From Actinomycetota bacterium (GTDB lineage Bacteria > Actinomycetota > JAHEXW01 > JAGVPG01): a stretch of 42,355 nt of DNA. Under the pieces are notes generated by a model, which was not told the origin of the DNA, did no database searches, and was given only the letters and a program-made list of their open reading frames with translations. Where the stretch lies: contig JAGVPG010000018.1 of assembly GCA_020052375.1 (NCBI GenBank), forward strand, positions 1-42,355, written 5' to 3'. A program made the position numbers and the translations under genes. This document shows, piece by piece, positions 37,105 to 38,279 of the stretch. Positions within the stretch are counted from its first letter, which is position 1, and the number at the start of each line of letters is the position of its first letter.

Positions 37105-37563
37105 ATGTGGATGCAAGCACATAGTTTAAAGCGGATAACGGTCATCACGGTATCGGTGTTGTTAATGCTGGCCGTTCTCACTCTTGGTCCGGGGTGTATA
37201 TCCAATGCTGGAAAAACGGGGAATACGCTGCAATGGGGAGATAGCATCGACCAGGGGATCAGCAAAGCAAAAGCCGACCAGAAGAAAGTGCTCATCGACT
37301 TCTGGGGCAGTGGGTGAGGCGCTTGCATAGAGATGGATGAAAAGGTCTTTCCGGACGTTCAAGTGAAAGATCTGATCGACCGTCACTACGTTCCCGTGAG
37401 GATCGATGAGAATGCGGACACAGCGCCTTTCCAGAAATATAATGTCATCTCACTTCCGACAATGATCATACTGGACAGCGACGGTACGGAAGTCAGCCGC
37501 AGCGGTTATCTGGACGTCGAGGGCATGAAGGCATGGCTTCAGAGCGAAGCGGAAAAGAAATGA
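37105..37563 (+). CDS. Selenocysteine-containing thioredoxin-fold lipoprotein (in-frame TGA at 37315)
   Basis: Read through TGA 37315-37317 as selenocysteine, the gene gives 152 residues. The N-terminus is a signal sequence with a near-lipobox (LTLGPGC, Cys31). The thioredoxin domain follows: KKVLIDFWGSG, then Sec71-Gly-Ala-Cys74, then IEMDEKVFPDVQVKDLIDR, with the cis-Pro motif VISLPTMIILDSDGTE. In ordinary relatives the active site is CxxC, so the TGA falls exactly on the first Cys. Sequence after the TGA continues the domain without frameshift, and a SECIS-like hairpin follows. The stop overlaps the next gene (ATGA). A simple nonsense mutation is the alternative. Confidence 0.82.
37315..37365 (+). 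promoter_or_regulatory. UGA selenocysteine codon with bacterial SECIS-like hairpin
   Basis: TGA is 37315-37317. An apical loop GGUC (37344-37347) begins 26 bases after it, closed by AAA/UUU (37341-37343 with 37348-37350), then a G-C pair (37339 with 37351) beside a bulged A. The outer stem pairs CGCUUG (37320-37325) with CAAGUG (37360-37365). A GGUC loop above a short stem with a bulge is the layout of the E. coli fdhF element read by SelB. Pairing was done by eye. Confidence 0.65.
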
Positions 37564-38279
37564 AAGCGAGAGCGCGCCTCCGCGTAATGTGGCACGCTTT
37601 GCTTTTCAGCATCGGCTTTTCCATCCTCTTTATAATAATGGGAGCGACGACGGGTCTGGTCGGCAGGTTCTTCATAGACTACCGTTTTATCCTTCAAAGA
37701 GTCGCGGGCGCGTTCATAGTAATGATCGGCATCTATATGACGGGCATCCTGGAAAAGGCAGGCCTACCCGGTGTCCGGGGTTTCGATGTGACGAGATTCA
37801 AACTCGCCGGACCCTTGGGGTCGATCCTTGTCGGTTTTATCTTCTCATTCAGCTGCATAGGCTGCATCGGACCGGTATTCGGAGCGATCCTGGCTCTGGC
37901 GTTGACGCAGTCTTCACTCACGGGATTTCTGATGTCGGTCGCTTTCTCACTCGGGCTTGCTCTACCTCTGCTTGTGATCGCCTTGTTCATAAGCGCGCTT
38001 CTACCGGTCTTGGTCAAGGTGAACAAGTATCTGGATGTGATCCAAAAAACCGCCGGGATCTTTCTGATCTTCTTCGGGCTCGCGGTGCTGACGGGTTGGA
38101 TAAGCAGTATGACGGCATGGCTCGCGCCTCTGGCTGTCCAACAGACCGGTTTGGGCACGGTTTCGATACCTTTGGCGTTCATAGGCGGCGTTGTCTCTCT
38201 TTTCTCACCCTGCTTCTTCCCCCTGATCCCGGCATATCTATCGTTTTTAAGCGGCGTCTCCGTAGTGAACAGTGACTAG
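37560..38279 (+). CDS. CcdA/DsbD-type thiol-electron transporter, apparently circularly permuted
   Basis: A 239-residue protein with six predicted helices. The first five match helices 2-6 of CcdA, including SCIGCIGPVFGAILALA (Cys102, normally in helix 4). The last helix, IPLAFIGGVVSLFSPCFFPL continuing IPAYLSFLSG (Cys218), matches helix 1 of CcdA, which normally opens the protein. All six helices and both redox Cys are thus present, in the order 2-3-4-5-6-1. CcdA carries electrons from cytosolic thioredoxin to outward-facing thioredoxin-like proteins; here the partner is the upstream selenoprotein. ATG 37560 overlaps that gene's stop. Rearranged tandem copies are an alternative. Confidence 0.82.
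   Translation: MKARARLRVMWHALLFSIGFSILFIIMGATTGLVGRFFIDYRFILQRVAGAFIVMIGIYMTGILEKAGLPGVRGFDVTRFKLAGPLGSILVGFIFSFSCIGCIGPVFGAILALALTQSSLTGFLMSVAFSLGLALPLLVIALFISALLPVLVKVNKYLDVIQKTAGIFLIFFGLAVLTGWISSMTAWLAPLAVQQTGLGTVSIPLAFIGGVVSLFSPCFFPLIPAYLSFLSGVSVVNSD

Follow-up and report, generated by a model that had tools for sequence, protein, structure and literature searches.

Thiol:disulfide interchange selenoproteins with a UxxC active site in a PF13098 domain have been predicted in Geobacter and Syntrophus (PMC1794560; table in PMC13188914), and the selC*-tRNACys/SelB* arrangement has been reviewed (PMC7609411). Here we describe a gene for a putative selenoprotein in which the same domain and motif are both present, and which is followed by a gene of the DsbD_TM/CcdA family. 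The window, that is, the whole stretch of 42,355 nt analysed, is contig C8 in the genome of an uncultured bacterium (1.64 Mb, 35 contigs, completeness 95.4%), and relatives were sought in 397 genomes from the phylum. The features of the locus are as follows:

37105..37563, + strand: putative selenoprotein gene, coding for a predicted exported DsbD-gamma-like thioredoxin of 152 aa if the TGA is read as Sec
Residues 1-31 of its product: predicted signal peptide with a possible lipobox
37315..37317, + strand: in-frame TGA, codon for the putative Sec71 of a U-G-A-C active site
37335..37352, + strand: weak candidate SECIS hairpin, its loop holding GGUC (37344-37347); no better than chance
37560..38279, + strand: ccdA-like partner gene, with an ATGA overlap with the selenoprotein stop; TM2-TM6 first and TM1 last

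The thioredoxin frame and its internal TGA

The frame runs from the ATG at 37105 to the TGA at 37561-37563, and its sole internal stop is the TGA at 37315-37317. The two same-phase frames recognised by the initial annotation are thus parted by this codon only, with no further stop between 37105 and 37560. Codon usage 3′ of the TGA is in-frame, on a par with that of the neighbouring gene and far superior to that of either alternative forward frame. TGA was also said to serve as an ordinary stop elsewhere in the window, and it does terminate 10 of the 20 genes checked; a general code change was ruled out because TGA ends half of these genes.

The joined frame matches PF13098 (Thioredoxin_2, E 7e-11), PF13899 (Thioredoxin_7, 3e-9) and PF00085 (Thioredoxin, 1e-6), as well as DsbH, while the stretch 3′ of the TGA, taken alone, still gives a Thioredoxin_2 match at 9e-6, just under the cut-off. 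Profile matches and alignment both place the TGA exactly at the first Cys of the thioredoxin CxxC, as the initial annotation had it. Many thioredoxin-like relatives carry Cys here in a frame free of internal stops; the in-frame UGA corresponds to a Cys of homologues, as in bacterial selenoproteins. The alignment with Cys-containing homologues that had been proposed as a check was made with the selenoprotein and fifteen thioredoxin-like relatives; the TGA, present in four of the 16 rows, was read there as Cys. Only three columns were invariant: that of the TGA (C71), otherwise always Cys, the resolving Cys (C74) and the cis-Pro (P118). The AlphaFold2 model shows one thioredoxin domain (mean pLDDT >90 over residues 41 to about 150) behind a low-confidence leader, and the nearest solved structures by fold, which are near the top by sequence too, are those of DsbD-gamma (2fwe, 1uc7). 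A contig search identified no close named relatives of the selenoprotein, and plasmid records gave distant matches only.

The best match beyond the window (33% identity over 123 residues) is in a genome from another family, G306 (locus L207). This relative reads MRKHVSMISLIAVLLALVVAGC..., has a lipobox and a U-P-S-C site, and is followed immediately by a CcdA gene whose segments are ordered as usual. Two genomes from the taxonomic order of the window genome, G001 and G002, contain a more distant thioredoxin with U-P-T-C, also with CcdA next. Three other genomes therefore share the UGA at this point of the active site. Between the G001 and G002 genes there are 45 synonymous and 6 nonsynonymous codon differences, 18 and 4 of them, respectively, after the TGA. 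Additional UxxC thioredoxin-like genes occur in genomes G029, G056 and G321, all three with a tRNA-Sec with UCA anticodon; they form a separate family in which a longer frame continues onward, with U-S-G-C in G056 (L051), U-I-G-C in G029 (L052) and U-S-G-C in G321 (L223).

The 152-aa frame starts with a hydrophobic leader, in agreement with the export proposed initially. The lipid anchor proposed along with it fares less well, because LGPG-C does not match the strict lipobox pattern; lipid anchoring is nevertheless plausible, mainly because the leader of the closest relative, from G306, carries a proper lipobox (VVAGC).

The initial annotation also described a hairpin with a GGUC loop 26 nt after the TGA and proposed a SECIS prediction on 37315-37365. 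The GGUC is present at that distance, but the hairpin does not stand out from the background. The published bSECIS model specifies G in the first two loop positions, a spacing of 16-37 nt, a stem of at least 4 pairs and an energy of -7.5 kcal/mol or lower. The strict geometry occurs at the gene with a spacing of 21 nt, and the local hairpin, at -1.1 kcal/mol, is above the energy limit. Hairpins loosely like a bSECIS follow 59% of all codons in 25 ORFs of the window (at least as strong in 37%), making the candidate uninformative. The 48-nt region folds worse than its shuffles (z +1.2), whereas for SelD z is -2.4, and the elements of the FdhA genes reach about -18 to -23 kcal/mol over 60 nt. The signal at the window gene is thus weaker than the strong hairpins after the SelD and FdhA genes, and the SECIS element is weak or of another form. 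Since 59% of codons pass the same test, the SECIS prediction was dropped as support for a selenoprotein, and it was given no weight in the verdict because the hairpin is no better than chance. An Rfam search across the gene returned one match, to a nematode snoRNA, below the gathering score and taken as chance.

Selenocysteine machinery and a second tRNA/selB pair

Contig C3 of the window genome contains selD (388.9 bits), yedF (125.8), selA (616.7) and selB (418.6), all above their curated cut-offs, and a tRNA-Sec with UCA anticodon situated about 14 bases past selB. The search for selA, selB, selC and selD suggested initially was thus positive, and the absence of selB and tRNA-Sec, named as the observation that would count against a selenoprotein, was looked for in this genome, where both are present. 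Gene selD (L018:4441) has its own single in-frame TGA, in the context AG-U-AAK, with a strong downstream hairpin, and each of three formate dehydrogenase genes (FdhA homologues; L120, L121, L122) has one TGA in the context U-H-x-P, again with strong downstream hairpins. Because these TGA codons lie at known Sec sites, UGA appears to encode Sec in no fewer than four additional genes of the genome.

No tRNA-Sec with UCA anticodon was seen in G001, G002 or G306. In G001 and G306 the canonical selB is broken at a contig end (in G306, the remaining fragment shares 60% identity with the SelB from contig C3), which would explain the missing tRNA-Sec if the gene order were that of the window genome. 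In G002, which is 91% complete, neither selB nor this tRNA was seen.

The window genome also carries a second pair, on contig C16 (L017:7670-9696), comprising a tRNA-Sec-shaped tRNA with a GCA anticodon and U73, and next to it a second selB whose product is 36% identical to the first; searches with this second SelB gave generic SelB matches with 35-39% identity. This is the selC*-tRNACys/SelB* layout, here in a genome that also has the full canonical Sec machinery. By eye, genes further along contig C16 resemble cysE, a NifS-type desulfurase gene, fdhD and cysK. The same GCA tRNA, with selB alongside, is found in G306 (contig C116, 24505-26521; L238), and GCA tRNAs of selC*-type shape are found in G044 and G016 (L098, L099); judging from these sequences, selC*-type tRNAs are recurrent in the phylum.

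The CcdA-like partner

The product of the overlapping downstream gene matches the Pfam families DsbD_TM and DsbD_2 and keeps both redox Cys: C102 of TM4 is invariant, and an SPC motif in TM1 can be read from the sequence. The TM4 Cys sits in FSCIGC rather than the usual FGWTPC, the W-x-P before it being missing. Residues 1-189 align to about 45-235 of the relatives, and the last 40 residues, which include FIGGVVSLFSPCFFPLIPAYLSFLSG, align to TM1 of 29 of 31 relatives, with E values down to 1e-9. This segment is N-terminal in all 29, so the order TM1 to TM6, ordinary in these 29 comparable relatives, is not kept in the partner. The CcdA from the G306 operon has the ordinary order, and no other single full-length match with a permuted order was seen among the matches listed for the 397 genomes.

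By sequence, the partner is a circularly permuted CcdA. Structure prediction returned helices, with low confidence at the relocated segment, and a search of the available literature for permuted CcdA found nothing, which is weak evidence of novelty. We lean towards a functional, naturally permuted carrier in which TM1 and the redox Cys it holds were relocated from the N-terminal to the C-terminal end, the ancestral order being preserved in the G306 operon, although the rearranged protein might be impaired. If functional, it would mean that the electron carrier tolerates a cut between TM1 and TM2; the locus would then encode a split DsbD that has Sec and a modified membrane component, and nature would have supplied a topology experiment on DsbD-type carriers.

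Interpretation and comparison with known systems

The machinery in the genome and the TGA at the same site in independent genomes support the selenoprotein reading of the initial annotation, and residue 71 is very probably selenocysteine, with UGA read as such by the genome's own SelB and tRNA-Sec. An ordinary CxxC protein whose Cys71 codon (TGC/TGT) became TGA by mutation or miscall would need one base change only and would fit the weak SECIS signal. We regard a pseudogene or error of this kind as very unlikely, given the recurrence of TGA at this catalytic position in three other genomes (one of them has a matching operon), the purifying selection after the TGA in G001 and G002, the coding signal that continues in frame past the TGA, and the Sec machinery in the genome. 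Still more improbable is that UGA is read as Cys, for instance through the second selC*-type tRNA and the second SelB. The genome does have a tRNA of tRNA-Sec architecture with U73 and a selB alongside, and Desulfobacterales are known to have a selC*-tRNACys whose anticodon is UCA (PMC7609411), but the GCA anticodon of the second tRNA would read UGC/UGU, not UGA, and the search turned up just one tRNA of this architecture with a UCA anticodon, the canonical tRNA-Sec next to selA and selB.

The gene is highly likely to code for a secreted or membrane-tethered Sec thioredoxin, with Sec at the attacking position of U-G-A-C, that probably forms a split DsbD with its CcdA-like partner; this reading follows from the family of the ATGA-overlapping next gene and from DsbD-gamma being the nearest structures. 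Electrons from a cytoplasmic thioredoxin would probably reach the Sec/Cys pair of the gamma-like domain by way of the two CcdA cysteines, and the domain could then reduce disulfides outside the cytoplasm. A Sec thioredoxin that acts independently of CcdA, for example by reducing peroxides or metalloids outside the cytoplasm, would accommodate the permuted partner without the usual W-x-P before its TM4 Cys; this is nevertheless unlikely in view of the ATGA overlap, the adjoining CcdA genes in G001, G002 and G306, and the DsbD-gamma structures.

With a split DsbD of this type, the list of Sec redox proteins would gain a selenothioredoxin that is predicted to be exported and coupled to CcdA and that is conserved in at least two families of the phylum. 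Standard gene calling splits such selenoproteins into two short frames. Sec at the end of a transmembrane electron relay would also be a natural site at which to ask why bacteria bear the cost of selenium outside the cytoplasm.

UxxC selenoproteins of the Thioredoxin_2 family are already catalogued, and the window protein is an addition to them. It shares the Pfam domain and the UxxC motif with the PF13098 family, in a comparison of domain and motif rather than of a close member sequence; the coupling to a CcdA gene is a trait of the window protein for which the parts of PMC1794560 and PMC13188914 consulted hold no mention in that family. The best NCBIfam match for the selenoprotein, its CcdA partner and the G306 pair is TsoB (NF045694, rhodanese/DsbD fusion-like), with scores in the window of 52.7 and 31.7 bits against a cut-off of 805. 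TsoB is a single fusion of 572 positions that includes a rhodanese part and has two Sec, whereas the window has two genes and one Sec. The fold and the UxxC site are common to the Trx selenoprotein (PF00085), from which the window protein differs in its predicted export, its likeness to DsbD-gamma and its weaker PF00085 match (1e-6). With DsbD-gamma itself, to which it is alike in fold and among the closest by sequence, it has in common a CcdA/DsbD_TM partner; unlike in DsbD, the domain is a separate protein, Sec would replace the first Cys, and no alpha domain is seen beside it. Among these components, the one that could prove new is the permuted partner.
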